From Pseudodesulfovibrio alkaliphilus (GTDB lineage: Bacteria > Desulfobacterota > Desulfovibrionia > Desulfovibrionales > Desulfovibrionaceae): DNA of 64,000 nucleotides. Positions 1 through 14,050 of the stretch are shown piece after piece. A program made the translations under genes and the position numbers. The stretch spans positions 682,001-746,000 of the forward strand of contig NZ_WODC01000001.1 in the NCBI RefSeq assembly GCF_009729555.1, given 5' to 3'. Numbering within the stretch: position 1 is the stretch's first letter; every line of letters begins with the position of its first letter. The notes below the pieces were generated by a model, which was not told the DNA's origin, made no database searches, and saw nothing but the letters and a program-made list of their open reading frames with translations.

Positions 1-70
1 CGTCCTGGCGAACTCGTCGCGCCTGTTGCGCCACCAACCCCCGGCTCTGGCGGCCGGAACCGAGGACTAA
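1..70 (+). CDS. C-terminal tail of a P-type ATPase (partial, enters from left edge)
   Basis: Only the last 22 codons are in the window. They read VLANSSRLLRHQPPAL and end in TAA at 68-70. The N-S-x-R-L-L-R pattern matches the end of the last membrane helix in P1B heavy-metal ATPases (family knowledge). The next gene starts two bases later, so the two are probably co-transcribed. If the assignment is right, this locus has three P-type ATPases in about 7 kb. Everything upstream is out of view, and so short a tail cannot give the subclass or metal. Confidence 0.5.
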   Translation, partial: VLANSSRLLRHQPPALAAGTED

Positions 71-72
71 CC

Positions 73-372
73 GTGAACCTTTCGACCCTGATGACCCTGC
101 GCGACCACCTGAAGATCCAGCACCATGTGCCCGGACGCATCCGCATCAAGTTCACCCCGGCCCTGCTGGCCGATCCACGGGCCATGGCCCTCAGGGACAA
201 GACCACTGATCTTCCCGCCTTTGTGCGCGAGGTGCGGGTCAATGTCTTCACCCGCGACATCGTCATTGAATACGATCCCAAGGCCGTGGTGCCGGAAGCG
301 CTGCACGAGGCGCTGACCACCGCGGACCAAGAGAGATTGAGCGAACTGGCCGCACAGTTCGAGACCGTCTGA
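73..372 (+). CDS. small VPGR-type heavy-metal-associated domain protein (HMA_2-like), 99 aa
   Basis: GTG start two bases after the preceding stop. The protein is one small domain with HHVPGRIRIKF near residue 17 and a closing strand DIVIEYDPKAVV near residue 72. The same framework (V-x-GR-x-R-x-K/R, then VIEYD) opens both ATPases downstream and forms the gene at 7529-7876. This is the HMA_2-like fold that lacks the CxxC of ordinary heavy-metal domains, so metal binding through cysteine is not expected. It is soluble with no signal peptide. The likely role is as a cytoplasmic partner or membrane-recruiting module for the P-type ATPases of this cluster; that role is inference. Confidence 0.6.
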   Translation: MNLSTLMTLRDHLKIQHHVPGRIRIKFTPALLADPRAMALRDKTTDLPAFVREVRVNVFTRDIVIEYDPKAVVPEALHEALTTADQERLSELAAQFETV

Positions 373-404
373 CACGACAGAAAGCAACCCGAAGGAGGAG
401 CGAC

Positions 405-959
405 ATGGATTATTCGAATCAGGCGCAGTACGGCCCGGCAGCGGGCGCTGCCGAACCCCAGGGAGCCCAGCCGCAGCCCGGCGGACTCTACCAGTTTCAA
501 CCCGGCGTGGGCTTCGTGCCCGTGCAGGGACAGCCCGCCCAAGCCCAGGCCGCGGGCATGGAAGGCCAGGCCGCGGGCGCTCAGGCCGCCGGGCAGAGCA
601 TGGGTACGCAGGGCATGGGAAGCCAGACCATGGGCGGATCGGCCGCCTTCAGCCAAGGCATGTATGGCCAGGGCATGCCCGAGGGCGCACAACCCAAGTT
701 CGATCAGAACAAGCTCGGCCAGATGTACGGCGTCATGACCGATGTCATGAACGGCGAGGCCGAGCCGACCAAGCTGCTGGGCCTGCTCGACGGCACGGGC
801 GGCGAATTTTGGAAGGGGGCCCTGGTGGGCGCGGCCGCCGTGGTCCTGCTCAACAACGACGCCGTCAAGGGTGCGCTGGCCGGTCTGGCCGCCTCGGCCG
901 GGTCCATGTTCCGCGAGGCCGACCCCGAGGGCGAACAGGTTACCGTGGGCTCCAAGTAG
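405..959 (+). CDS. Gly/Ala/Gln/Met-rich protein with a C-terminal glycine-zipper membrane segment, 184 aa
   Basis: A strong ribosome site (AAGGAGGAG) precedes the ATG. Residues 1-100 are low complexity, rich in Gln, Ala, Gly, Pro and Met, with repeated SMGTQGMGSQTMGG-like units. Residues 103-125 hold a short charged helix. Residues about 130-165 form a Gly/Ala hydrophobic stretch beginning FWKGALVGAAAVVLLNN. A closely similar block occurs in the 125-residue protein at 1548-1925, so the two are diverged paralogues. I do not know a named family. The position in an ATPase/FeoA cluster suggests a structural membrane protein of an iron-storing compartment, by analogy with small hydrophobic Fez proteins (inference). 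Confidence 0.55.
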   Translation: MDYSNQAQYGPAAGAAEPQGAQPQPGGLYQFQPGVGFVPVQGQPAQAQAAGMEGQAAGAQAAGQSMGTQGMGSQTMGGSAAFSQGMYGQGMPEGAQPKFDQNKLGQMYGVMTDVMNGEAEPTKLLGLLDGTGGEFWKGALVGAAAVVLLNNDAVKGALAGLAASAGSMFREADPEGEQVTVGSK

Positions 960-986
960 CCCGACACACTTGCCAAGGAGCAAAAC

Positions 987-1526
987 ATGACCAAGCAATA
1001 TACTACTGCGGCCAGGGCTGTGCCCCTGAGTGGCGCCGTTCTGGGCGCGGCCGTATTCGGCGCCGTGATCGGCGCCACGGCAGCCGCGGCCCGAGGCATT
1101 CGACAGGTGAAAAACGGCGAGGCCACAAAACAGGACGTGGCCATGGATGTGGCCCGCGAGAGCGGCTCCACCGCCGTGGCCGCAGGAGCGGGCGTGGCCG
1201 TGGCCTCGGCCCTCGGCCTTGGCCCGATCCTCTCCGCCGTGGGCGTGGTGGCCGTGGCCGTGGGCACCAAGTACGCCATCGATTCCGTTCTCAGCCCCTC
1301 CCGCCCCAAACCCGCAGCCAAAGCCGCGGTCCCTGCCGCGTCAGCGACCGAAAAGACGGCACCCAAAAAAACCGCAGCAATCAAAACCCCGAGCTCCGCA
1401 GCCAAAAAAAGCGCGGCTCCCCAAAAGACCGTCAAAAAGGCTGCGCCCAAAAAAGCTGCGCCCAAAAAAGCGGCCACGACCACGAAACAGACCGCCAAAA
1501 CCACCGAAACCCCAGACAAGGCATAA
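987..1526 (+). CDS. membrane-associated protein with a histone-H1-like Lys/Ala/Pro tail, 179 aa
   Basis: The ATG follows AAGGAG. Residues 1-40 hold a Gly/Ala-rich hydrophobic segment (PLSGAVLGAAVFGAVIG). A charged linker follows, then a second hydrophobic region near residues 66-95 (VAAGAGVAVASALGLG). From residue 108 to the end the protein is almost entirely Lys, Ala, Pro and Thr, with tandem KKAAPKKAAPKKAAT units like the tail of histone H1. Such a tail could bind nucleic acid, polyphosphate, acidic lipid headgroups or mineral surfaces. It sits 27 bases after the previous gene in the same run. No family is recognised; the tail is visible, its ligand is a guess. Confidence 0.55.
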   Translation: MTKQYTTAARAVPLSGAVLGAAVFGAVIGATAAAARGIRQVKNGEATKQDVAMDVARESGSTAVAAGAGVAVASALGLGPILSAVGVVAVAVGTKYAIDSVLSPSRPKPAAKAAVPAASATEKTAPKKTAAIKTPSSAAKKSAAPQKTVKKAAPKKAAPKKAATTTKQTAKTTETPDKA

Positions 1527-1547
1527 GCGCCTCAAGAGGAACAGAGC

Positions 1548-1925
1548 ATGAGCGATCACAGCACACAGTGGCCCCAGCCCGGCGCCTCCTCTGCCGAGGG
1601 CGCGTACTCCAGGGACCCGCAGAACCCCACCCACTACTTCCAGGACGCCAACCAGTTCGGCGCCGCCATGCAGTCGGTCCCGGCCTCGCGGCCTGCCGTT
1701 GCCCAGGCTCCCTCTCCTGTGGCCTCCTGGTTCGCCTTCACCAACGCCGACTACCTCAAGGGACTGGCCCTGGGTGTGGGCGCGGCCCTGGTGGTGACGA
1801 ACCCCACGGTGCAAAAGGCCGTGGTCTCCGGCGCGGTCAAGGCATGGGCGGCCATCCAGGGCGGCGTTGAAGAACTCAAGGAACAGGTCCAGGACGCAAA
1901 GGCCGAACTGAGCCAAAAGGACTAG
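1548..1925 (+). CDS. small membrane protein, paralogue of the 184-aa protein upstream, 125 aa
   Basis: The ATG follows AAGAGGAAC. Residues 1-60 are polar and Pro/Gln/Ser-rich. Residues 64-100 read DYLKGLALGVGAALVVTNP and onward into VVSGAVKAW. They match the C-terminal block of the 405-959 product: aromatic-x-K-G-x3-G, a hydrophobic run, then N-x-x-V. The last 25 residues form a charged helix (GGVEELKEQVQDAKAELS). The gene lies in tight succession with its neighbours. Function is unknown; the shared block suggests a common membrane-inserting or self-associating module within the cluster. Confidence 0.55.
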   Translation: MSDHSTQWPQPGASSAEGAYSRDPQNPTHYFQDANQFGAAMQSVPASRPAVAQAPSPVASWFAFTNADYLKGLALGVGAALVVTNPTVQKAVVSGAVKAWAAIQGGVEELKEQVQDAKAELSQKD

Positions 1926-1928
1926 ACC

Positions 1929-2168
1929 ATGTCAGGCAAAAACGCCACGGGCCTGTCCCGTCCCACGGGAATGTCCACCACCACCAAGCGGACCCTGGCC
2001 AAGGTCGGCATGGCCACATCCTTAGGCCTGCTTGTGACCACAGGGCTGCTTGAAACGGGCAAGACCGAGACCCTCAAGAGGCTCCACCTCTGGTCCGGCT
2101 TCGCCCTGGTGGGCTTCTCCTACTGGCACTATTCCCTGTATACCCGCAAACCCTCGGGCGGAGCCTAG
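1929..2168 (+). CDS. two-helix membrane protein with a HLWSG-x8-WH motif, 79 aa
   Basis: Starts three bases after the preceding stop, and its own stop is three bases before the ATPase start, so it is clearly operonic. It has two hydrophobic stretches, near residues 27-43 and 51-71. The second contains LHLWSGFALVGFSYWHYSLY, which has paired histidines at a spacing seen in DUF4405-type and cytochrome-b-like two-helix haem proteins (family resemblance only). It could carry haem or a metal in the membrane beside the ATPases, or simply be structural. Identity is unproven. Confidence 0.5.
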   Translation: MSGKNATGLSRPTGMSTTTKRTLAKVGMATSLGLLVTTGLLETGKTETLKRLHLWSGFALVGFSYWHYSLYTRKPSGGA

Positions 2169-2171
2169 CCC

Positions 2172-4319
2172 ATGACCGCCCACGCGGCACCGACCTTCAC
2201 CGTGGTCCACGAGGTGGCGGGACGCATGCGCCTTCGCAGCCGCCGCCTCTACGACCCCGCCCTGGACCTCGCCTACCTGGAGGCCCTGATCGGTGCGTTG
2301 CCCGGCGTGGACGAGGTACGCATCAACCGCTGGGGCGCATCCGTGGTGGTGGCCCACGACGGCCGCCCCGAGACGCGGGCCAGGGTGCTCAACCTCCTTG
2401 ACCACGTCCCGCCCGATGCCTATGCGCCGGGCAACGCGGGTCGGGAAGAGGTCTCGGCCCTGACTGTGACAGGCCAGGGACTCGCGGCCGCCCTGACCCC
2501 ATTCGCCCCCCAGACGGCGGCCGCACCGGCCAGTTGGCTGATGGGCGCCCCCACCCTGCTCAAGGGGCTGCACACCCTGCTCTACGACGGCGTCAAGGTG
2601 GAGGTGCTGGACGCGGCGGCGGTGGGCTTCTCCCTGTTGCGGCGCGACTACTTCACGGCCAACGCCATTGTGGCCATGCTCGGCCTGGGCGGCTACCTGG
2701 AGCACTGGACCGAAAAGCGCTCCGACGACCTGCTCAAGAGTCTGCTGCGGCCCGCCGTGGAAGAGGTTTCGGTGGAGCGCGACGCCAGGGAGATCCGTAT
2801 TCCCTTCGACAGCCTGACCGTGGGCGATCTGGTCATCTGCGGCGCGGGCGAGCTGCTGCCGGTGGACGGTGTGGTCGTGGACGGCGACGCTGCCCTGAAC
2901 CAGAGCTCCATCACCGGGGAATCCCTGCCCGTGCATGTCAGCGAGGGAGACGAGGTGCTCTCCGGTGCCGTCATCGAAGACGGCCGCATCAAGGTGGCGG
3001 CCCGCGCCGTGGGTCGGGAAACCTCCATGGCCCGCATCGGCCGCTTTCTTGAGAACTCCCTTCGCACCCGCTCCGCCTCGCAGAAGCGCTCCGACGAGCT
3101 GGCCGACAAGCTGGTGCCTGTCACCTTCGGCCTGGGGCTGGTCCTGTTCGTCCTGACCCGCGACGTGAGCCGCGCCGCTTCGGTGCTCACAGTGGACTAC
3201 TCCTGCGCCATCAAACTGGCCTCGCCCGTGGCAGTCAAGTCGGGCATGCACACGGCCGGGCACTGCGGGGTGCTGCTCAAGGGAGCGCAAGCCCTGGACA
3301 ACCTCTCCCGCATCGACACCATCGTGTTCGACAAGACCGGCACCCTGACCCGGGGCGACCTCGCGGTCACGGATGTACGGCCCCTGGACGGCATGGCCCC
3401 CCACGCCCTGCTGGCCCTGGCTGCCGGGGCAGAGGAGCATTACGCCCATCCGGTGGCTCGGGCCGTGGTGGCCGAATCCAGGCGGCGCGGCCTGCCCCTG
3501 CCGCCCATCAGCCAGGTGGACTTCATTGTGGCCCACGGCGTTTCCGCCTATGTGGAGGGCGAACGCGTACTGGTGGGCAGCCGACATTTCCTTGAAGACG
3601 ACGAGGGCGTGGACTGCGCCCCGGTGCGCGACGAGGCCCGCGCCCTGCGCCGGGAAGGCAAGTCCATTCTCTATGTGGCCCGCTCGGGGCGGATTCTCGG
3701 GGTCATCGCCCTGCGCGACGAACTGCGGCCCGAGGCGGCCGAAGCCCTGGCAATGCTCAAGGAGCGCGGCATAACCACCATCGTCATGCTCACAGGAGAC
3801 CATCGCGACACGGCCCGGTCCATTGCCGACGCCCTTGGCGGCATCGACGAGGTCCACTGGGAACTCAAACCCGAAGACAAGGCAGCCATCGTCAGGCGGC
3901 TCCAGGAGTCCGGGCACACCCTCGCCTTTGCCGGAGACGGGGTCAACGACGCCCCGGCCCTGCTCTCGGCCGATGTGGGCATCTGCATGCCCGGCGGCGC
4001 GGACCTCGCCCGCGACTCGGCCCAGGTGGTCCTGCTGGAGGACGATCTGCGGCTGTTGGCCGTGGCCCGCGACGTGGCCGACCGCACCCGCCTCGCCCTC
4101 AGGCGGACCTTCCAGGCCGCCGTGGGCTTCAACTCCGCCGTGCTCCTGGCTGCCACACTGGGCCGCATCTCGCCCGTGGTCTCGGCCTTCCTGCACAACG
4201 CCTCCACCCTTTGCATCGTCAGCTACGCGGCCGCGGCCTGCCGCCGCCGTCCCGCATCAGCCGATTTTCTCGAAGCCATCAAACCCTCCCAAGAGGCCAG
4301 CCATGTACGCCACCCTTAA
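2172..4319 (+). CDS. P1B-type heavy-metal ATPase, no CPC motif (P1B-6-like; FezB candidate), 715 aa
   Basis: ATP-driven metal transporter. The N-terminus carries a VPGR-like module (VAGRMRLRSRR near residue 14) instead of a CxxC domain. Hydrophobic segments lie near residues 130-170. The actuator motif TGES is at 248-251, SCA replaces CPC in the metal-site helix at 344-346, the phosphorylation motif DKTGT starts at D387, the HP motif is at 426-427 and GDGVNDAP is at 588-595. All catalytic motifs are intact and the length is usual. The absence of CPC and CxxC matches the P1B-6 group to which the ferrosome ATPase FezB belongs; iron as substrate is inferred from that and from the FeoA-like neighbour. 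The end overlaps the next gene by 17 bases. Confidence 0.85.
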   Translation: MTAHAAPTFTVVHEVAGRMRLRSRRLYDPALDLAYLEALIGALPGVDEVRINRWGASVVVAHDGRPETRARVLNLLDHVPPDAYAPGNAGREEVSALTVTGQGLAAALTPFAPQTAAAPASWLMGAPTLLKGLHTLLYDGVKVEVLDAAAVGFSLLRRDYFTANAIVAMLGLGGYLEHWTEKRSDDLLKSLLRPAVEEVSVERDAREIRIPFDSLTVGDLVICGAGELLPVDGVVVDGDAALNQSSITGESLPVHVSEGDEVLSGAVIEDGRIKVAARAVGRETSMARIGRFLENSLRTRSASQKRSDELADKLVPVTFGLGLVLFVLTRDVSRAASVLTVDYSCAIKLASPVAVKSGMHTAGHCGVLLKGAQALDNLSRIDTIVFDKTGTLTRGDLAVTDVRPLDGMAPHALLALAAGAEEHYAHPVARAVVAESRRRGLPLPPISQVDFIVAHGVSAYVEGERVLVGSRHFLEDDEGVDCAPVRDEARALRREGKSILYVARSGRILGVIALRDELRPEAAEALAMLKERGITTIVMLTGDHRDTARSIADALGGIDEVHWELKPEDKAAIVRRLQESGHTLAFAGDGVNDAPALLSADVGICMPGGADLARDSAQVVLLEDDLRLLAVARDVADRTRLALRRTFQAAVGFNSAVLLAATLGRISPVVSAFLHNASTLCIVSYAAAACRRRPASADFLEAIKPSQEASHVRHP

Positions 4320-5034
4320 CGACGCGCCCACCGGCACACCCCTGACCATTTCGCGCATCGCGGGCGAAGACCTGGAGGGCCGCATGGGCCGCATGGGCCT
4401 GTTCGTGGGCGAGACCATCACCCGGCTCGACGAGGACGTGGCCCTGCGCACCGTCCGGGTGCGCGGCCCAAGGGGCGAAGTGGTCCTGGGCAGCGGCATG
4501 GGCGGCAAGGTCATGGCCCACCTCGACGACGGGCGCATCCTCCCGCTTATGGAGATGCGACCCGGCGACCGGGGCCATGTGGAATACATCAACGCGGGCG
4601 AGGCCCTGCGACAGGGCATGGCCGCCCTCGGACTCGACGAGGACGACCCCATAGAGCTTGTACGGGTGCTGCCGCCCATGGAATACACGGCCCTGGTCGT
4701 CGGACGTGGCCGGGTGCGGCTGGCCGAAGGCATGGCCGCCAAGATCCTCGGACGCATGGGATCGACCAGTTGCCAGTTCGCCAACGCCCGGGCCGGGCAG
4801 GATTTCACGGTGGAAACCATCATCGGCGGTCAGCGCGCCCAACGCGCCATCCGCTCCCTGCACATTACGCCGGGTACGACCCTGCGCCTGGAGATGGTGG
4901 GAGAGGCGCCAAGCTACCGCATGCCCGGCCGCGACCGCTGCGTCATCGCCGGAACGGGCGGCCTGCGGGTATATCTGCGCCTTGACCAGGCCGATCAGGT
5001 GGTGGTCGAATACGACGAGAGGGCCGCGCAGTGA
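4303..5034 (+). CDS. triple FeoA-like (SH3-fold) repeat protein, 243 aa
   Basis: I start this at the ATG inside the end of the ATPase gene, since the open frame upstream is only a shadow of that gene. Three successive blocks (about 1-78, 79-152, 153-243) each show the FeoA pattern: a short strand, a helix ending in (M/L)GL or LHI, then P/V-G-x-x-(I/L) and several strands. The middle repeat is clearest (MRPGDRGHVEYI, then LGLDEDDPIELVR, ending AEGMAAKILGR). FeoA is the small cytoplasmic partner of the ferrous transporter FeoB (established). Here it stands alone between two P-type ATPases with no feoB, so it may serve them instead (inference). Its stop overlaps the next start by four bases. Confidence 0.65.
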   Translation: MYATLNDAPTGTPLTISRIAGEDLEGRMGRMGLFVGETITRLDEDVALRTVRVRGPRGEVVLGSGMGGKVMAHLDDGRILPLMEMRPGDRGHVEYINAGEALRQGMAALGLDEDDPIELVRVLPPMEYTALVVGRGRVRLAEGMAAKILGRMGSTSCQFANARAGQDFTVETIIGGQRAQRAIRSLHITPGTTLRLEMVGEAPSYRMPGRDRCVIAGTGGLRVYLRLDQADQVVVEYDERAAQ

Positions 5035-7145
5035 CCGACAACCGGATCACAGAAGAGTCCGCAGGAGGGCTCCGAAAGCCCCGACTGGTTCACGAAACCG
5101 GCTGTCGGCTCCGATTCCGCTGGAACCGCCTGCTCGACCCGGCCCTGAAGCCCGACTGGCTTGAAGCCTGGCTGGCCAACCTGCCGGGCGCCAGCCGGGC
5201 GCGGGTCAATCCCGCCGGACGCTCCCTGGTGATCGAATACGACGGCAAGACCGATCATCGCGCCCTCATCGCCGCCGCCCTTCAGGATGTGCCGGCAGAG
5301 GCATTCGGCGGCACCAGACCTGCCGAACCGCGCCGAAGGCTCATCGACGCGGCCGCCCACGGTGCGGCGGCGGCGCTGCTGCCCCTCGCCCCCCTGCCCG
5401 TGCAGGCCGTGGCCGGAACAGCCATGGGCCTGCCTCACATCCTGCGCGGCGTGGATACCCTGGTCAACCGTGGGCTCAAGGTCCGCGTCCTGGACATGAC
5501 CACCATCGGCGTCAGCCTGCTGCGAGCGGACTTCACTACCGCGGCGTCCATTTCGGCCATGGTCATCCTCGGGGAATACCTCCGCACCATGTCCGACGAC
5601 AAGTCCAACGCCCTGCTGCGTCGGCTCATCGCCGACCCGGTGGATACGATCCGGGTGGAGCGCGGCGGCGTGGAGGTCCGGGCCGGGTTCGGGGAAGTGA
5701 CGGCAGGCGAGGTGGTGGTCTGCGGCCAGGGCGAGGTGGTGGCCGTGGACGGTGACATCGTCGAGGGCGAGGCCCTGCTGGACCTCGGCTCGATAACCGG
5801 AGAATCCGCGCCCGTGCATGTCGGCCCGGGAGACACCGTGGTCTCGGGCAGCGGCGTGGTCGAGGGACGGCTGCGCATCGAGGCCCGGCGCACAGGCCCC
5901 GAAACGAGCATGGCCCGCATCGCTGCCCTCATGGCCCGCGCCGCAGAGGAACCATCCGCCGCAGAGGTGCGCAGCACCCGGCTGGCCGACGCCCTGGCCC
6001 CCATCACCCTGGGCCTTGGCGCGGCTCTGTACGCGGCTACTGGCGATCTGAACCGCGCCCTCTCGGCCCTGACTGTGGACTTTGCCTGTGCCGTGAAATT
6101 TCCCGCCCCGGTGGTGGTCAGAACCTCCATGCACTCGGCCGCCAAGCTGGGAGCCATCGTCAAGACCGGGCGCGGCCTCGAAGCCCTTGGCGAGGTGGAT
6201 GCCGTGGTCTTTGACAAAACCGGCACCCTGACCCGGGGGATCATGTCCGTGACCGACATCCGCCCCGTACCGGGCGGCAACGCGGACCACCTGCTGCGGC
6301 TGGCCGCTGCCGTGGAGGACAGGCATGGCCACCCCATTGGCCGGGCCATACTGGCCGAAGCCCAAAGGCGCGGGCTGGACATCCCCACTCCGACCCGCAC
6401 CGACTGCTCCGTGGCCCACGGGGTCAGCGGCATGGTCGAAGGTATCCTGGTCCGCGTGGGCAGCCGACACTTCATCGGCGACGACTGCGGCATCGACTGC
6501 TCCAGCCTGGAAAAAACCGCCAGCCGTTACCGCGCCGAAGGCAAGAGCCTGATCTATGTTTCGGCCGGAAACTCCCTGCTCGGCGTGGCTGCCCTGCGCG
6601 ACACCCTTCGGCCCGAGGCGCGGAGCGTGGTCGAGTCCCTGTGCGCGGGGGGCGTACGCACCGTGGTCCTGCTCACGGGCGACCATGCGGCCACAGCCAA
6701 ATCCCTTGCTGCGGAACTTCCGCTGATCGACGCCATCCACTCCGGGCTGACGCCCGAGGAAAAGGCCCTTGAGGTGCAGCGGCTCAAGGAGGCAGGGCAC
6801 ACCGTGGCCGTGGTGGGCGACGGGATCAACGATGCCCCCGCCTTTGCCGCGGCCGACGTGGGCATTTGCATGTCGCGGGCTACGGGCCTTGCCCGGGATT
6901 CGGCCCAGGTGGTGCTGACCCGCGATTCGCTGGAACCGCTGGCCGATGTCCACCGGCTGGCCAGACGCTCGGGAGCGATTCTCCAGCGCTGCTTCGCCGA
7001 GGGAGTGACCGTCAACGTGGGCCTGCTTCTGGCCGCCTCGGCCGGGTATCTCTCACCCGCCACCGCCGCGGCCATCCACAACGCCAACACCTTTGCCCTT
7101 CTCGGGGTCGCGGCCCATGCCTCGTCGCGCCCCCTTGCCCCATGA
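5031..7145 (+). CDS. second P1B-type ATPase, no CPC motif (P1B-6-like), 704 aa
   Basis: GTG start overlapping the previous stop (GTGA), so translational coupling is likely. The architecture matches the ATPase at 2172: an N-terminal module with HETGCRLRFRW near residue 20 and a strand ending VIEYDG. TGES starts at T256, FACA stands in place of CPC at 351-354, DKTGT starts at D395, the HGHP motif lies near residue 430 and GDGINDAP starts at G596. All catalytic motifs are present. The metal-site helix differs from the first ATPase (FACAVKF against YSCAIKL), which suggests paralogues that have diverged in substrate or partner. This is the last plus-strand gene of the run and is followed by a hairpin. 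Confidence 0.85.
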   Translation: MTDNRITEESAGGLRKPRLVHETGCRLRFRWNRLLDPALKPDWLEAWLANLPGASRARVNPAGRSLVIEYDGKTDHRALIAAALQDVPAEAFGGTRPAEPRRRLIDAAAHGAAAALLPLAPLPVQAVAGTAMGLPHILRGVDTLVNRGLKVRVLDMTTIGVSLLRADFTTAASISAMVILGEYLRTMSDDKSNALLRRLIADPVDTIRVERGGVEVRAGFGEVTAGEVVVCGQGEVVAVDGDIVEGEALLDLGSITGESAPVHVGPGDTVVSGSGVVEGRLRIEARRTGPETSMARIAALMARAAEEPSAAEVRSTRLADALAPITLGLGAALYAATGDLNRALSALTVDFACAVKFPAPVVVRTSMHSAAKLGAIVKTGRGLEALGEVDAVVFDKTGTLTRGIMSVTDIRPVPGGNADHLLRLAAAVEDRHGHPIGRAILAEAQRRGLDIPTPTRTDCSVAHGVSGMVEGILVRVGSRHFIGDDCGIDCSSLEKTASRYRAEGKSLIYVSAGNSLLGVAALRDTLRPEARSVVESLCAGGVRTVVLLTGDHAATAKSLAAELPLIDAIHSGLTPEEKALEVQRLKEAGHTVAVVGDGINDAPAFAAADVGICMSRATGLARDSAQVVLTRDSLEPLADVHRLARRSGAILQRCFAEGVTVNVGLLLAASAGYLSPATAAAIHNANTFALLGVAAHASSRPLAP

Positions 7146-7150
7146 CAGAG

Positions 7151-7175
7151 GCCCTGCCGAAAACTCCGGCAGGGC
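7151..7175. terminator. perfect 9-bp stem-loop after the ATPase operon
   Basis: GCCCTGCCG and CGGCAGGGC flank a 7-base loop. It starts six bases after the ATPase stop and lies between convergent genes. No T-run follows on either strand, so intrinsic termination is plausible but weak. Confidence 0.5.
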
Positions 7176-7246
7176 CGCAAAAGAGCCCTCCCACCGGCCA
7201 CCCAAAGGCGCTCGGCAGGAAAGTTCGGTAAATTATTGCGCCTGGA

Positions 7247-7465
7247 TCAGGCCTTCTGGACTTCCTTGCGGGCGTCCTTGACCAAAGCCGTCACTTCATC
7301 CCTGGCCTTGCCGTACTGGGCCACAGTCCAGTCCTTGGCCTTGAGACCCGCCTTGATGGCGCACTTGGTGGTCTTCTTCACGGTCTGGGACCTGGTGGCG
7401 GCATAACCGATGACCCCGCCAACCACCGTACCGGCGGCGAAGATGGCGATTCGTCCTAAACTCAT
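7247..7465 (-). CDS. small membrane-anchored protein (YtxH-like layout), 72 aa
   Basis: I start at the ATG that follows AAAGGAGGACGCC; the longer frame lacks a ribosome site. An N-terminal helix (IAIFAAGTVVGGVIGYAAT) is followed by a basic, amphipathic region rich in Lys and Ala (KKTTKCAIKAGLKAKDW) and an acidic-basic helix at the end. One membrane span plus a charged coiled tail resembles YtxH-type small proteins. The Gly-zipper helix also resembles those of the small proteins at 405-1925. It runs opposite to the main cluster and may belong with the next minus-strand gene. Function is unknown. Confidence 0.55.
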   Translation of the reverse strand: MSLGRIAIFAAGTVVGGVIGYAATRSQTVKKTTKCAIKAGLKAKDWTVAQYGKARDEVTALVKDARKEVQKA

Positions 7466-7528
7466 GGCGTCCTCCTTTGTGCCCGGCAACAGCCCGGCGT
7501 TCATGCAATCATTGCCTTGGTGCCCGCT

Positions 7529-7876
7529 TCAACACCGGAATCGTTCGATATCCACGCCGCAGGCTTCGGCCAAACTGGCGGCAACGCTCCCGAACTCGTC
7601 CTCGCCCTCGCAGACGAACAGCCTGTGGAGCAGTTCGGGCTCGATGATCTGCCGGTCATACTCCATGACCATGGAGCGGGTCAGTGGATTGAACCGCGTC
7701 CGCCTCACAGCGGGTACTGACAACTCCGCGGGCGGTCCGAAGCCGTTGACCCTGACATACTCTATGACCCTGGGGTCGGCAATGACGCCAAGCCCGATCT
7801 TGAGGGTCAAACGGCCGGGCACATGGCTACCCACCCGGACATGGTCGCGCAAACCGTATACCAGATCAAGAGACAT
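7529..7876 (-). CDS. VPGR-type heavy-metal-associated domain protein, 115 aa
   Basis: I chose the ATG that gives MSLDLVYGLRDHV; the upstream extension is not conserved with its relatives. The start is equivalent to that of the 99-residue protein at 73-372 (LRDHVRVGSHVPGRLTLK here, LRDHLKIQHHVPGRIRIK there). A second strand reads RSMVMEYDRQIIEP. This is therefore the fourth copy of the module in 8 kb. The C-terminus contains cysteines (LFVCEGED, EACGVDIERFRC) that the first copy lacks. Probably a cytoplasmic partner of the P-type ATPases. It lies 63 bases upstream of the small membrane gene on the same strand. Confidence 0.6.
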   Translation of the reverse strand: MSLDLVYGLRDHVRVGSHVPGRLTLKIGLGVIADPRVIEYVRVNGFGPPAELSVPAVRRTRFNPLTRSMVMEYDRQIIEPELLHRLFVCEGEDEFGSVAASLAEACGVDIERFRC

Positions 7877-8164: not shown

Positions 8165-8175
8165 TGCCCTCGGAG

Positions 8176-8190
8176 TGAAAACGATTTTCA
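8176..8190. promoter_or_regulatory. Fur-box-like operator
   Basis: TGAAAACGATTTTCA is a palindrome with 6-bp arms. Against the 7-1-7 Fur core TGATAATnATTATCA it agrees at 10 of 14 arm positions. It lies just downstream of the predicted transcription start, where bound repressor would block transcription. Function as a Fur site is inferred from sequence and iron-related context. Confidence 0.5.
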
Positions 8191-8214
8191 GATTCAATTG
8201 AAAGAGGAGTTGTC

Positions 8215-8940
8215 ATGAAGAAGTTCCGTATTGCCTTTGGACTGATGAGCCTGCTGATCCTGGTTGCCGCCACTGCGGCCCAGGCCCATGACATGTGGCT
8301 GGAAAAACGGGGCGACCGGGCATGGCTGCTATACGGCCATCCGGGAAGCACCGACCCCTATCCCCTGTCCAGGATCACCGCCCTGACGGGCATTACCGCC
8401 AACCAGTGGAAAGTGGCGCTGGAGCCCGTGGAGCACAAGGGCGAGGCCTTTGCCTGGCTCAATGACGACTTTGCCCTGCTCTGCGTCGATTTCGACAACA
8501 AATACTGGTACAACACCGAGGAAGACGGCTGGCGCAACTTCCTTGATCCGCGTGAGGTGCGGGGCACCGTCATTGATGAGGGCCGCTCCTGGAAACTCGC
8601 CAAGGAGATCGTCTCCTGGCAGCCGTTCATGGCGCAGCCGATCGGGCAACGCATCGAAATCGTGCCCCTGAAGGACCCCACCTCGCTCAAGCAGGGCGAC
8701 TCCCTGCCTGTAATGGTCTATTACGAAGGCAAACCAGCGCCCACCACCGGAGCAGCCGTATCCATCACCTCCGACTTCGCCATCGAGCACCCGGAGATGC
8801 GTACGCTCACCGACCAGAAGCCGGTCAACGTCAAGATCGGTCCTGCGGGACGCCAGCTGATCATCGGCAAGTACGAGCACCGCCTCGACGATACCCGCCG
8901 GGTCTGGTACGCCTTTTCCCTGAGCTTCACCACCAAGTAA
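8215..8940 (+). CDS. secreted DUF4198 / NikK-like periplasmic protein, 241 aa
   Basis: A signal peptide (residues 1-23) ends in AQA, and the mature protein would begin HDMWLEKRG. DUF4198 proteins such as NikK are periplasmic helpers of Ni/Co uptake and present metal-binding histidines at or near the mature N-terminus (family knowledge). The body has the usual beta-sandwich pattern (LKQGDSLPVMVYYEGKPAP, then TTGAAVSITSD). GAAAGAGGAG is a good ribosome site. No ECF or ABC transporter genes are adjacent, and a Fur-like box sits in the leader, so iron rather than nickel may be the metal (inference). It pairs with the next gene, 15 bases downstream. Confidence 0.7.
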   Translation: MKKFRIAFGLMSLLILVAATAAQAHDMWLEKRGDRAWLLYGHPGSTDPYPLSRITALTGITANQWKVALEPVEHKGEAFAWLNDDFALLCVDFDNKYWYNTEEDGWRNFLDPREVRGTVIDEGRSWKLAKEIVSWQPFMAQPIGQRIEIVPLKDPTSLKQGDSLPVMVYYEGKPAPTTGAAVSITSDFAIEHPEMRTLTDQKPVNVKIGPAGRQLIIGKYEHRLDDTRRVWYAFSLSFTTK

Positions 8941-8955
8941 TATTACGGAGAAGCC

Positions 8956-9279
8956 ATGACCAGACGACATATCCTGCCAGCCATGCTCATCGTCGCTTCC
9001 CTGCTGATCCCGGCGAGTGCCATGGCCCACGCCGCCATCTGCTCCTGCTTTGACAACGGCGACAACACCATCACCTGCGAAGGCGGCTTCTCGGACGGCT
9101 CGTCCGCCGCCGGAGTCCGGGTGTTTGTCCGCGACGCAAACGACACCACCGTCGCTCGCGGCGCCATGAACGATGACAGCGAGTTCACCTTCGACAAACC
9201 CGCCGGAGCCTACACGGTGCTCTTCGACGCCGGGCCCGGGCATCAGGTCGAGATCCAAAGCCGCAACATCGTCCAATAA
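8956..9279 (+). CDS. small secreted NikL-like protein, 107 aa
   Basis: A signal peptide ends SAMA, and the mature form would start HAAICSCFDNGD. A single beta-sandwich domain follows, with GGFSDGSSAAGVRVFVRD, then DSEFTFDKPAGAYTVLFD and a final DAGPGHQVEIQ. The GPGH ending and single-domain layout recall NikL, the partner of the NikK-type DUF4198 protein in nickel ECF systems. An ATG behind TACGGAG is the start. With its neighbour it makes a two-gene operon closed by a strong terminator. The role in periplasmic metal binding or delivery is inferred. Confidence 0.6.
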   Translation: MTRRHILPAMLIVASLLIPASAMAHAAICSCFDNGDNTITCEGGFSDGSSAAGVRVFVRDANDTTVARGAMNDDSEFTFDKPAGAYTVLFDAGPGHQVEIQSRNIVQ

Positions 9280-10546: not shown

Positions 10547-12817
10547 TCAACTGTCCGCGACTGGAAGTGTTATGGTGAACCGTGCCCCGGCTTCACCGTT
10601 GTCCACATGGATGGCGCCGCCGATGTTCTTGACCAGGCCATAGCTGATGGAGAGCCCCAACCCGGTTCCCTTGCCGACCTTCTTGGTGGTGAAGAACGGA
10701 TCGAAAATCTTGCTGAAGATCGCCTCGGGTATTCCGCCGCCGTTGTCCTCCACCTGGATGAAGACCCTGTCCTGGTCGCGTCCGGTACGCACGGTTATGA
10801 GTGCCGTATCAGAATTGACGGCTCCTGTCTTCTCCTCAAGCACGTCCCTGGCGTTGACCAGGAGGTTGACCACGACCTGCTCCAACTGCTCCGGCGAGGC
10901 CATGACCGGCGGGGGAGACTGGGCCAGCTCCCAGCGCACGGTGATGCCATGGGCGTCGAACTGCTTGTTGAGCAGGGTGAAGGCCCGGTTGACGCAATCG
11001 TTGACGTTGACCCGCTCCAGCTGCCTGTCCGCCTTGCGGCCGAACTCCCGCATGTGGTTGATGATCCTGGTGGCCCTGTCCACATAGCTGTCCACCTCGC
11101 GGGCCAGGGTGGCGATGGTCTCGGCCGGGATGGTCTCGCCCGCATTGATCTTCTTGATGAAGAAGTTGCTGGCGGACTTGATGACCGTGAGCGGCTGGTT
11201 CAGCTCGTGGGCCACGCCCGTGGCCATTTCGCCCAGAGTGGCCATCTTCCCGGCATGAAAGAGCAGTTGCTCGGCCTCCAGCCTCTCGGTGATGTCCGTG
11301 GTGCTGATGAGCAGATACTCTGTGCTGGCATGAGCCGAGATGGCCTGCATGACATCCACGAAAAAGGCGGAGCCGTCGCTGCGAACGGACTTGACCTGGT
11401 TGATGGAGGTGAAGGCGCGCAGCTGCGCCTTGATCCGCTCCGCCTCGTCGGGGTGGATGACCGTGAGAAAGGACCGGCCGACAAGCTCTTCGGGCTCGTA
11501 GCCGTAAACCGACGAAGCCGTGGAGTTGCAGTCGATGATGTTGAGGGTGGTGTTATCCACCACAAAGATGGAGTTGGGCACGCTGTTGAAGATGGTGTGG
11601 TATTTCTTCTCCGACTCCCTGAGACGCTCCTCGAGCTTCTTGCGTTCGGTAATGTCCAGGCACATCTCCATGGCCTTGGTCACCCGGCCGTGTTCGTCGC
11701 GGATGGGTGCGGTATGGACAATCCAGTGGGAATAGGTTCCGTCGGGATTGCGTCTGCTCTCCTCGCTGCAATGGGCCAAACCGTTCTCAAAGGTCTTCTC
11801 CACAGGGCAATCCTCGCACCGCTCGTCGATACCCTTGTATGCCTGATAACAGAAGGCACCCGGAAACGGGCTGAACCGCTCTCGGGTCTCCTTGTTGTAT
11901 TCAAGCAGCTTGTAGTCGCGATCCTGGACCGTGACCACGCAGGGGACGTTGTCGAAAAGCAGCTCGTATTCGAGCATCTTGGCATTGAGGGCCTGTTGTT
12001 TGGCGTGCAGGGCCCGGACCATGGCCGTGTGCGAACGGGCCAGCTCGCCCAGCTCGTCCTCTCGCCCGGCAATGGGCAGGTCCGCCCTCAAGGTGCGCCC
12101 CTCGGCGATGTCGCGGGAACTCTTGTTCAGCTGGGAAAGGGGCTTGGTGATGATCTGACGCAGCCCAAGGAAGATGCCTCCAGAGGTGATGATGAAGAAG
12201 ATGGTCCCAAGGACGATAAGGCCGGTGCGGTAGTCCGCAACCATGATGTCCGTATCGTCGAAGGAGAAAACGAGTTCCATTGTCCCGAGAATGGACTTGT
12301 CCGGCGGATGAAAGTGGCACGGCCCGCCCGAACATTCGGTCGAATTCTCAATGGGCGTCTGTACGCTGAAAAGATGGGCCCCCTCCCCGGAGCGGATCTC
12401 GCGGATGCGTTCCTCCCTGGAGAGGGCGGTCTTGGGCGGCGTCCACGCATGGCAGGCTTGGCACAGGGAGCTGTCCTGACCGATAACCGTTTCTTTTTCA
12501 TCGGGATTGTTGGAGAACTTTATCTCCCCTTCCTTGTTGATGACCCGGATGGAGGTGATGGGATTGATCTCCGCGACCTTGCGGATGATCTGGTCTATCT
12601 CGTGGCGGGAGTTGCGCAGCATGGCGTTGTGCAAACCCAGCTTGATGGTTCTGCTGACCATGTCGGCAGTGATGACGTGCTCTGAGAGGGTGTGGGTGTT
12701 GACGAAGCCGATGCTCAGGTGGATGAGGATCAGAGTGCCCGCCAGCATGATGCCGCCAGTGGCGACAATAATCTTGGCGATCAGGTTTTTCCTGATGATC
12801 ATGATGAGCCTGAGCAT
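10547..12817 (-). CDS. membrane sensor histidine kinase with periplasmic c-type haem motifs, 756 aa
   Basis: TM1 (about 12-37) and TM2 (about 197-218) bracket a periplasmic sensor of about 160 residues. This holds CQACH at 119-123 and CSGGPCH at 162-168, that is CXXCH and CX4CH haem-attachment motifs like those of Desulfovibrio multihaem cytochromes. Then come HAMP (about 219-271) and a first PAS (about 283-395) with an unusual Cys cluster at 323-337 ([15 protein letters not shown]). A second PAS (about 405-512), HisKA with H537 ([10 protein letters not shown]) and an ATPase domain ([16 protein letters not shown]) follow. A covalently haem-bound redox or ligand sensor is likely. The start follows GAGGGA. 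Confidence 0.88.
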
Positions 12818-12975
12818 CTTCCCTCGTCAACTCCGCTGCCGCCATCCGACAGATAAATTTGTGGTTTATAGGCAAAAAAATGAAACAAAACCAGCCGACG
12901 TGTCAAGGCAAATCGATTGCAGACCGCCGAGGTCGGAAATTGTCGAAACGAGCCCGGATACGGGGGCGGCCGCGT

Positions 12976-13626
12976 TCAGGGGGTGTCGCGGCGCTTCTGT
13001 GGCGGAGGGGCGTCCTGGGGCGATGCGGCCTGACGGGCGGCGTGAAAGGAGTAAATGCGGCGCAGGGTCGCGAAGGTCTCCACGCAATGGTAGAGGGCAA
13101 AGGCCGCGCAAAAAAGCGTGACCAGGTCCCTGTTGAAATGGAGCGAGGCGAGGTAAAGCAGATAAAAGACGTATTTGGAACGGACAAAGCGGCGCAGCTT
13201 CACGCCCAGCTCGTTGGCGTAGATGACCAGCCCGATAAAGGCCACGTAGGTGGCGGCGAAGAGGACCATGGCAGGCCCCCACGCCCCGATATGGTAGACG
13301 GCCGCGGCAGGCAGGACAATGACCCCGAGCTGGTCGGCCACAATGTCCACCAGCAGCCCGCCGGGGTGGGGCGTGCCGGTCCTGCGGGCCAGAGGCCCGT
13401 CCAGGCCGTCGCAGAGCACATACAAGGCCATGCCCACGAATGCCAGCCAGGCCAGGGAGGGAGGCGTCAGCCCGGCCAGCACAAGGAATCCGACTCCGGC
13501 CGCCGAAACCTGGTTGGGCGTGACCCGAAGCCGCGCCAGCAGCCCGACAACCGGCGAGAAAATCCGGTCGCGCATTCCCGCGAAGTCGCGCTGGCTGGCC
13601 CGTTCCTCAAAGTTGAAATAGTCCAT
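12976..13626 (-). CDS. CDP-alcohol phosphatidyltransferase family membrane protein, 216 aa
   Basis: The family signature is complete at about residues 72-97: DGLDGPLAR, then G and D-x3-D (GGLLVDIVADQ). It transfers a phosphatidyl group from CDP-diacylglycerol to an alcohol acceptor at the cytoplasmic face of the membrane; which alcohol cannot be told. About five hydrophobic segments are visible. I start at the ATG giving MDYFNFEERASQ; an earlier GTG would add 20 residues but gives a poorer N-terminus. The C-terminal 20 residues are Pro/Gln-rich and probably disordered. It stands alone on the strand between the kinase operon and cbiET. Confidence 0.8.
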   Translation of the reverse strand: MDYFNFEERASQRDFAGMRDRIFSPVVGLLARLRVTPNQVSAAGVGFLVLAGLTPPSLAWLAFVGMALYVLCDGLDGPLARRTGTPHPGGLLVDIVADQLGVIVLPAAAVYHIGAWGPAMVLFAATYVAFIGLVIYANELGVKLRRFVRSKYVFYLLYLASLHFNRDLVTLFCAAFALYHCVETFATLRRIYSFHAARQAASPQDAPPPQKRRDTP

Positions 13627-14050
13627 GGCGTTGCCTGCCCGTTTGCCGTCGATCCCGCCGTCGGTGCGCCCGACAGCGGGCCACACCCTGTCACGGGATC
13701 GTGACCATTGCCAGAAGTGTCCGTCATGCCGGAATATTTGTCAAGAGTAGGGGACAGATGGTTTTGCGCGACGATGCGTGGATTGAGGCATCGAGTCCAA
13801 GCGGGAAAAAAATGAAAACCCCCGGGAAAAAACACCGTGTCGGCAATCCCTTGAGCTTCACCTTCTGGCACACATACCAGTTTAGCAGACTGTAAAAAAA
13901 TGGAGGAGCGACGGCTCTTTCTTCTCTCTTGCTCCCCACCTGGGCCATCGCAGGATGGGACAACCACTTCCCACTATGGGTGCTGACCGGAAAACAGACG
14001 CCTTTCCCGCCCGCAGCCTCGCTGCGATCGCCCGCGTATCACCCCTCTGG
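13627..14050. other. 424-bp gap between cbiET and the phosphatidyltransferase gene
   Basis: No coding region is credible. The left part has A-tracts around CCCCCGGG (13810-13830). The right part is rich in short palindromes: CGCAGC/GCTGCG around GAG at 14019-14033, CCATC/GATGG near 13945-13958, and a GGAGC/GCTCC pair near 13905-13935. On the minus strand this is the 3' flank of cbiET and the leader of the next gene. It may hold a structured RNA, but I recognise no known RNA family. Confidence 0.3.

Follow-up and report, generated by a model that had tools for sequence, protein, structure and literature searches.

The 64,000-nucleotide stretch of DNA from the sulfate-reducing bacterium Pseudodesulfovibrio alkaliphilus analyzed here (NZ_WODC01000001.1, 682,001-746,000; called the window below, with coordinates given as positions in it) opens with a run of genes that probably constitutes an expanded ferrosome (fez) operon, read here from its genes alone. 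We favor this reading because both complete P1B-type ATPases of the run belong to the FezB clade and carry FezB-type motifs, because a FezC-type protein with two invariant histidines and a FezA-like protein are encoded with them, because a Fur-like box is enriched before such clusters and Fur and feoB genes accompany sister clusters, because the operon and the one of the type found in Desulfovibrio (Solidesulfovibrio) magneticus RS-1 nearly exclude each other, and because families of small proteins are shared with alphaproteobacterial FezB operons. The main surprise, judging from sequence, is a homologue of the magnetosome protein MamC. A first-pass annotation had proposed a ferrosome-like locus, possibly expanded, and both parts of the proposal are supported: FezB-clade pumps, a Fur-like box and proteins resembling FezA and FezC argue for the first, and a second FezB-type pump, a CPC-type pump and a triple FeoA protein for the second. 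All the items it had listed for a compact run were found, in a tight co-directional set. According to open reading frames called by script rather than taken from annotation, the plus-strand genes are separated by gaps of 2-32 bases, with two overlapping pairs; the cluster starts approximately 2.1 kb before the window, which opens inside it.

Two pumps of the FezB clade

A motif check confirmed the earlier claim that ATPase 1 (2172..4319, plus strand, 715 amino acids) and ATPase 2 (5031..7145, plus strand, 704 amino acids) are complete P1B-type ATPases without CPC or CxxC; TGES, DKTGT, GDGxND and HNxxT are all kept. The reported tail of a third ATPase is indeed present at 1..70 on the plus strand, but the absence of CPC does not hold for its whole gene (L009:7860-10070, corresponding to G000:C1:679860-682070), which encodes a P1B ATPase of 736 amino acids with a CPC motif. 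A first tree comprised 65 P1B ATPases out of 128 candidates and a second, more careful tree 34 of those 65, with CopA and ZntA of E. coli as Cu/Zn references. The rows were chosen: the second tree omitted L112, which had fallen outside the FezB clade in the first tree despite its FezB label, and L106, L116, L121 and L143, which formed an outer branch of the FezB clade and have other motifs, while the second pump of the sister cluster L048, which lacks GDGxND, was dropped from the trees by the motif filter. In this tree check, which the first-pass annotation had suggested with a grouping among Cu/Zn P1B ATPases as the contrary outcome, ATPases 1 and 2 fell within one clade in both trees (100/100) that joined the pumps of Rhodomicrobium, Rhodobacter, Hahella and Pseudothauera (100/99). 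Contigs of named organisms are examples among the matches listed of a generic-pattern scan and not part of the survey described below. The FezB clade, comprising the ATPase 1/2 group, RS-1-type FezB and the pumps of Clostridia and Methanobrevibacter, was recovered at 100/100, apart from CopA and ZntA. We take RS-1 FezB to be of the P1B-6 class.

The motifs agree with this placement. D[YF]SCA replaces CPC in ATPase 1 (DYSCA) and in the FezB rows of the 34-ATPase tree, with DYACP of R. capsulatus as the exception; ATPase 2 has DFACA at this place, and HNxxT is found near the C-terminus of the FezB rows and of both window pumps. Together, clade and motifs point to the P1B-6-type FezB pump expected of a ferrosome locus, and neither protein shows the CPC motif or the grouping with CopA or ZntA that mark Cu/Zn efflux pumps, an identity that was rejected for both on their position in the tree. 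The AlphaFold2 model of ATPase 1 (predicted local distance difference test, pLDDT, 81) has an N-terminal alpha/beta domain followed by the P1B core, and its best matches among solved structures were copper and zinc P1B ATPases. ATPase 2 is a paralogue of ATPase 1 and branches with an orphan pump of genome G068 (100/99), which marks the second pump as a paralogue of older origin rather than a recent tandem copy. It occurs in 8 of the 15 loci of the family that have the CPC-type ATPase. In the sister cluster L048, the second pump (11776-13869) may be a paralogue that does not pump or has decayed.

The upstream CPC-type ATPase formed a clade of its own (100/100) outside the FezB clade. As first gene of the cluster it would suit an island for efflux of, or tolerance to, Cu, Zn, Ni or Co, in which the small proteins would be accessory metal carriers rather than parts of an iron store; the HMA_2 domains, the DUF4198 proteins beside the window's cluster and sister clusters and a likely Co/Ni-type transporter adjoining the sister cluster L059 (recognised by eye) would fit as well. 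However, ATPases 1 and 2 are of the FezB and not of the Cu/Zn type, the operon has a triple FeoA protein, a FezC-type protein and a Fur-like box, and sister clusters come with genes for Fur (in or beside L047, L048, L049 and L050) and FeoB (near L045 and L048), as identified with Pfam, which makes an efflux island unlikely.

FezA-like, FezC-type and other partner proteins

The name fezA is assigned here to the small gene before fezB by its place; RS-1 has three Fez proteins. The FezA-like small membrane protein expected of a ferrosome locus is encoded at 7247..7465 on the minus strand (72 amino acids, start placed by an AGGAGG upstream of the ATG). In hhalign, it matched a FezA-type profile, whose members were picked by location before FezB, with a probability of 96% (E 3.5e-9 for one comparison). 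The MamC-like protein, used as control, reached 10% with the same profile and was rejected as a FezA relative. The small membrane protein p125 (1548..1925, plus strand) appears distantly FezA-like in its C-terminal half, with a weak match of 84%, and its relatives adjoin FezB in Rhodomicrobium, Rhodobacter and Hahella. The GQ protein (405..959, plus strand) is rich in glycine and glutamine and has a hydrophobic stretch at its C-terminus; relatives are encoded at the equivalent place in other clusters, and it had no match in Pfam or NCBIfam.

A FezC-type, DUF4405-like protein of 79 amino acids is encoded at 1929..2168 on the plus strand (PF14358, E 0.0052). It aligns to the C-terminal half of RS-1-type FezC (E 1e-8), and two histidines are invariant over 16 FezC-type proteins, RS-1-type FezC among them, which suggests that the ferrosome-typical heme protein is represented here. 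The RS-1 protein was described as DUF4405-like and recombinant FezC of Desulfurispirillum indicum bound heme (excerpt of PMC10979944); in our Pfam search RS-1-type FezC gave no DUF4405 match at E 0.01, and its HMA_2 half scored 40.2 bits. This half is lacking in the window's FezC-type protein, and HMA_2 proteins are instead encoded by separate genes. The VPGR-type domain proteins reported earlier are these HMA_2-like proteins (PF19991, cut-off 30 bits): HMA2a (73..372, plus strand, 29.9 bits) has a conserved position, and HMA2b (7529..7876, minus strand, 15.7 bits, below the cut-off) is kept beside several sister clusters. The N-termini of ATPase 1, ATPase 2 and the CPC-type ATPase scored 18.1, 13.1 and 32.8 bits, respectively. 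The triple FeoA protein (4303..5034, plus strand) was likewise found as claimed, with three PF04023 stretches (E 1.8e-20).

Taken by themselves, the pumps and the FeoA and HMA_2 domains could work without a vesicle, and membrane invagination is not readable from sequence, so that the genes might encode a complex for iron export or trafficking at the plasma membrane without any organelle. We regard this as improbable, since FezA-like and FezC-type partners are present, FezA and FezB are required for ferrosome formation in Clostridioides difficile (excerpt of the review PMC12574912), and the MamC-like protein resembles a protein of an organelle.

A MamC-like protein with a histone-like tail

The product of 987..1526 (plus strand) is a membrane protein with a Lys/Ala-rich C-terminal tail (18 lysines and 22 alanines in 74 residues), which the first-pass annotation had rightly described as histone-H1-like while missing the homology to MamC. 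It matches NF038051, the NCBIfam model for magnetosome MamC, with E 3.1e-11 over model positions 5-91 of 97; its 43.4 bits, like the 60.3 bits of the top relative, are below the equivalog cut-off of 100 bits. Among 19 family members from different clusters, the window's counted, 16 match at E ≤0.01 (best 1.7e-16), the exceptions being R. capsulatus L086, Pseudothauera L082 and L041. Amino acid composition was rejected as cause of the match, since MamC-like proteins gave no MamC match when reversed (four) or shuffled (one), nor did five other forward fez-cluster proteins or the other Gly/Ala-rich proteins tried. By profile comparison, the H1-tailed protein is a MamC homologue.

In MamC, two membrane helices flank a helical loop, and a loop peptide binds iron through Asp14, Gly16 and Glu18 (excerpt of PMC6206293). 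Asp14 of the peptide corresponds to Asp70 of full MamC, and the pair of residues 66 and 70 is thought to be important for magnetite (excerpt of PMC6584501). The model of the window's protein has predicted helices at 14-42, 48-75 and 79-102 (low confidence). Its loop places, set from the published residue numbers and spacing rather than by residue-by-residue alignment to MamC, are D50, D54 and E58, with alanine standing in for Gly16. An acidic residue occupies these three places in 12/17, 6/17 and 17/17 close relatives and in 9, 10 and 10 of the wider 19; glutamate itself stands at the Glu18-like place in 17/17 close relatives, and the Asp14-like place is acidic in 6/17. A search of the PDB with the MamC-like profile returned no MamC chain and just two chance-level matches.

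Two sister loci (L044:1328-2532 and L046:4371-5672) contain a second MamC-like gene in a divergent unit with HMA2b and FezA-like genes; the window has no second copy. Lys-rich tails recur on different small proteins across fez clusters: in a contig from the same genus (L041:8450-14605), an RS-1-type fezB cluster encodes a 159-amino-acid FezA-like protein ending in a long Lys/Ala-rich tail, together with a cation efflux family gene (PF01545). Excerpts of the literature treating both magnetosomes and ferrosomes do not mention a kinship between MamC and ferrosomes, which is no proof that the link is unreported.

Conservation and distribution

Among the matches listed, the order CPC-type ATPase, HMA2a, GQ, MamC-like, p125, FezC-type, ATPase 1 and triple FeoA recurs within the family, and because the same order recurs in other genomes, the gene run is more than chance. 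The full order was also found outside the family, in L175, L179 and L181 from other families of the phylum, and a Desulfarculaceae contig (L080) has the same order from GQ through the triple FeoA gene. In 395 genomes of the phylum, a MamC-like profile search returned 13 genomes, five of them in the window's family; for the eight others, the DNA fetched showed a clear FezB-type pump in five, L180 was ambiguous and two were short contigs.

For a survey of 199 genomes of the order, pumps were assigned to types with bit thresholds of 700 and 540 set in the analysis, with at most five candidates scored per genome and counts taken among the matches listed. At least 28/199 genomes have an ATPase 1-type pump and at least 68/199 an RS-1-type pump, with both in a single genome (Fisher p 6.8e-5); in the 25 sampled genomes of the window's genus, four have one type, four the other and 17 neither. 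Because the two pump types almost never share a genome, this distribution, for which descent was not controlled, fits two interchangeable versions of one function. NF038051 matches, none above the cut-off, occur in 28/199 genomes, and 26 of these also belong to the 28 genomes in which an ATPase 1-type pump was found. In the two pump genomes without MamC match, the pump is located on contigs of 3.1 and 4.3 kb. Outside the pump set, the match in G129 adjoins its RS-1-type fezB, and the weak match in G181 is on a different contig from its fezB.

The MamC homologue, with its 16/19 family members matching NF038051, may also raise the idea of a magnetosome-related locus, either a remnant or a precursor, that makes a crystalline iron mineral. 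However, magnetochrome (PF18509) was detected in 3/199 genomes, namely G172, which is taken to be RS-1, and two others, and in none of the 28 genomes with ATPase 1-type pumps, the window's included (other mam genes were not searched for). A magnetosome remnant was rejected on the lack of a PF18509 match in the window's genome, the pumps are FezB-type, and we consider a magnetosome-related locus highly implausible.

Regulation and neighboring genes

The E. coli-type Fur box failed to single out the leader of the operon, which scored 14/19 and was equalled or beaten by 9% of background leaders; therefore the published delta-proteobacterial box, WTGAAAATNATTTTCAW, was used (excerpt of PMC545781). 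In the same excerpt, the genes listed with Fur sites in D. vulgaris include one for an HD-domain protein and one with P-type ATPase/hydrolase domains. With this box, the best site in the 400 bases before the CPC-type ATPase gene (L009:7689-7705) has 14/16 matches, a score reached by 10/366 background leaders, one of which is a catalase leader sharing the same site. The 21 cluster leaders scored above the 366 background leaders with a p of 6.5e-8, which is too small because the loci are related, and 13/21 have at least 12/16 matches. Fur control of the operon is a prediction only.

The catalase gene (L009:5904-7421, PF00199) is located before the window and diverges from the fez-like operon, with the leader and its Fur-like box common to both. 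Behind the cluster (8175-9279), a second Fur-like box, GTGAAAACGATTTTCAG (8175..8191, 13/16 matches), is located 40 bases before a DUF4198 gene (8215-8940, PF10670, E 2.5e-13), which is followed by a gene for a small secreted protein; DUF4198 genes are also found near the sister clusters L043, L048 and L058. Because of this box and of the DUF4198 genes near sister clusters, the arrangement suggests that the DUF4198 gene and the fez cluster form a linked iron-regulated unit.

Proposed function and significance

Several observations weigh against an expanded ferrosome operon. Its first gene encodes a CPC-type ATPase and not FezB, and the second pump may be decaying in some clusters, as one of its eight genes, in L048, lacks GDGxND and has TGEA instead of TGES. 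For the window's proteins, the DUF4405 score, the MamC score and 4/5 HMA_2 scores are below the curated cut-offs, and the AlphaFold2 model of the MamC-like protein is poor (pLDDT 61). Box matches are 11/16 or fewer in 8/21 cluster leaders, and the near mutual exclusion of the two pump types is confounded by descent.

If the ferrosome reading is correct, low iron would release Fur and allow expression of the operon. The FezA-like, p125, GQ and MamC-like proteins may reside in inner-membrane vesicles or give them shape, the triple FeoA protein and the HMA_2 domains could pass on or gate Fe(II), ATPase 1, perhaps together with ATPase 2, would move Fe(II) into the vesicle, and the FezC-type cytochrome might set the redox state of the iron. 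By analogy with the role proposed for MamC in magnetosomes, the MamC-like loop would face the lumen and handle mineral; the Lys/Ala-rich tail would then be cytosolic and could tether the vesicle to the nucleoid or to acidic lipid. A bolder proposal, which we put forward tentatively, is that a component for handling mineral is common to ferrosomes and magnetosomes. MamC-like proteins would then be a regular part of large fez operons in non-magnetotactic bacteria, templating or capping an iron or iron-phosphate mineral from the lumen, and MamC might have originated as a ferrosome protein or spread from one. With its pair of FezB pumps and its redox cytochrome, the long type of approximately nine genes would build a ferrosome that controls its mineral and differs from the RS-1 type found in its place in sister species.

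Ferrosomes, iron stores enclosed by a membrane, have only recently been recognised as a class of bacterial organelles, and few of their gene sets have been studied. The locus defines a long fez version, kept in several families of a single phylum, and offers a paralogous pump pair and a third pump for comparison. Through MamC it links the two organelles, ferrosome and magnetosome, so that where MamC originated and what governs mineral form inside ferrosomes become directly testable.

Comparison with known systems

The RS-1 fez operon is represented here by genome G172 (L040:9455-13095), identified as RS-1 by inference, with the magnetochrome matches among the grounds. Like the window, it has a FezB-clade pump, FezA-like and FezC-type proteins and an HMA_2 domain. 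It differs in having a single pump (42% identity between RS-1 FezB and ATPase 1) and a FezC with a fused HMA_2 half, whose gene is followed by one for an HD-domain protein, and the G172 genome gave no MamC match, unlike the window's genome. In the Clostridia relatives L084, L085 and L087, through which the fezAB genes of C. difficile were compared, a FezA-like protein and FezB are present as in the window, and Fur- and FeoA-like genes were seen by eye near the genes of L085 and L087; unlike in the window, no MamC-like, GQ or p125 match was found beside the fez genes of the three.

With magnetosome MamC (Mms13), the H1-tailed protein shares the profile match over nearly all of its 97 positions and the conserved loop glutamate, and its predicted helices, at low confidence, fit the plan of two helices and a helical loop. 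It is unlike MamC in its score below the equivalog cut-off, its long tail, the Asp14-like place, acidic in just 6/17 close relatives, and the lack of a magnetochrome match in the genome.

The six-gene fez operon of Rhodopseudomonas palustris (RPA2333-2338; excerpt of PMC12016538) was compared via Rhodomicrobium udaipurense (L083), Rhodobacter capsulatus (L086) and a Hahella metagenome-assembled genome (L081) as proxies. In these, the GQ, MamC-like and p125 families directly precede FezB, as in the window, and the pumps group with ATPases 1 and 2 (100/99). In the 10 kb fetched on either side, the proxies lack a CPC-type ATPase, a triple FeoA and a second pump, and their MamC-like members are more diverged, that of R. 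capsulatus being without an NCBIfam match. In Pseudothauera (L082:7865-14923), a single run of genes around fezB encodes HMA_2, a protein with weak similarity to rubrerythrin (below the cut-off) and FezB and includes genes resembling feoA and feoB by eye. Sequence places the window's locus in the ferrosome gene family, as an expanded member nearest to the alphaproteobacterial type.

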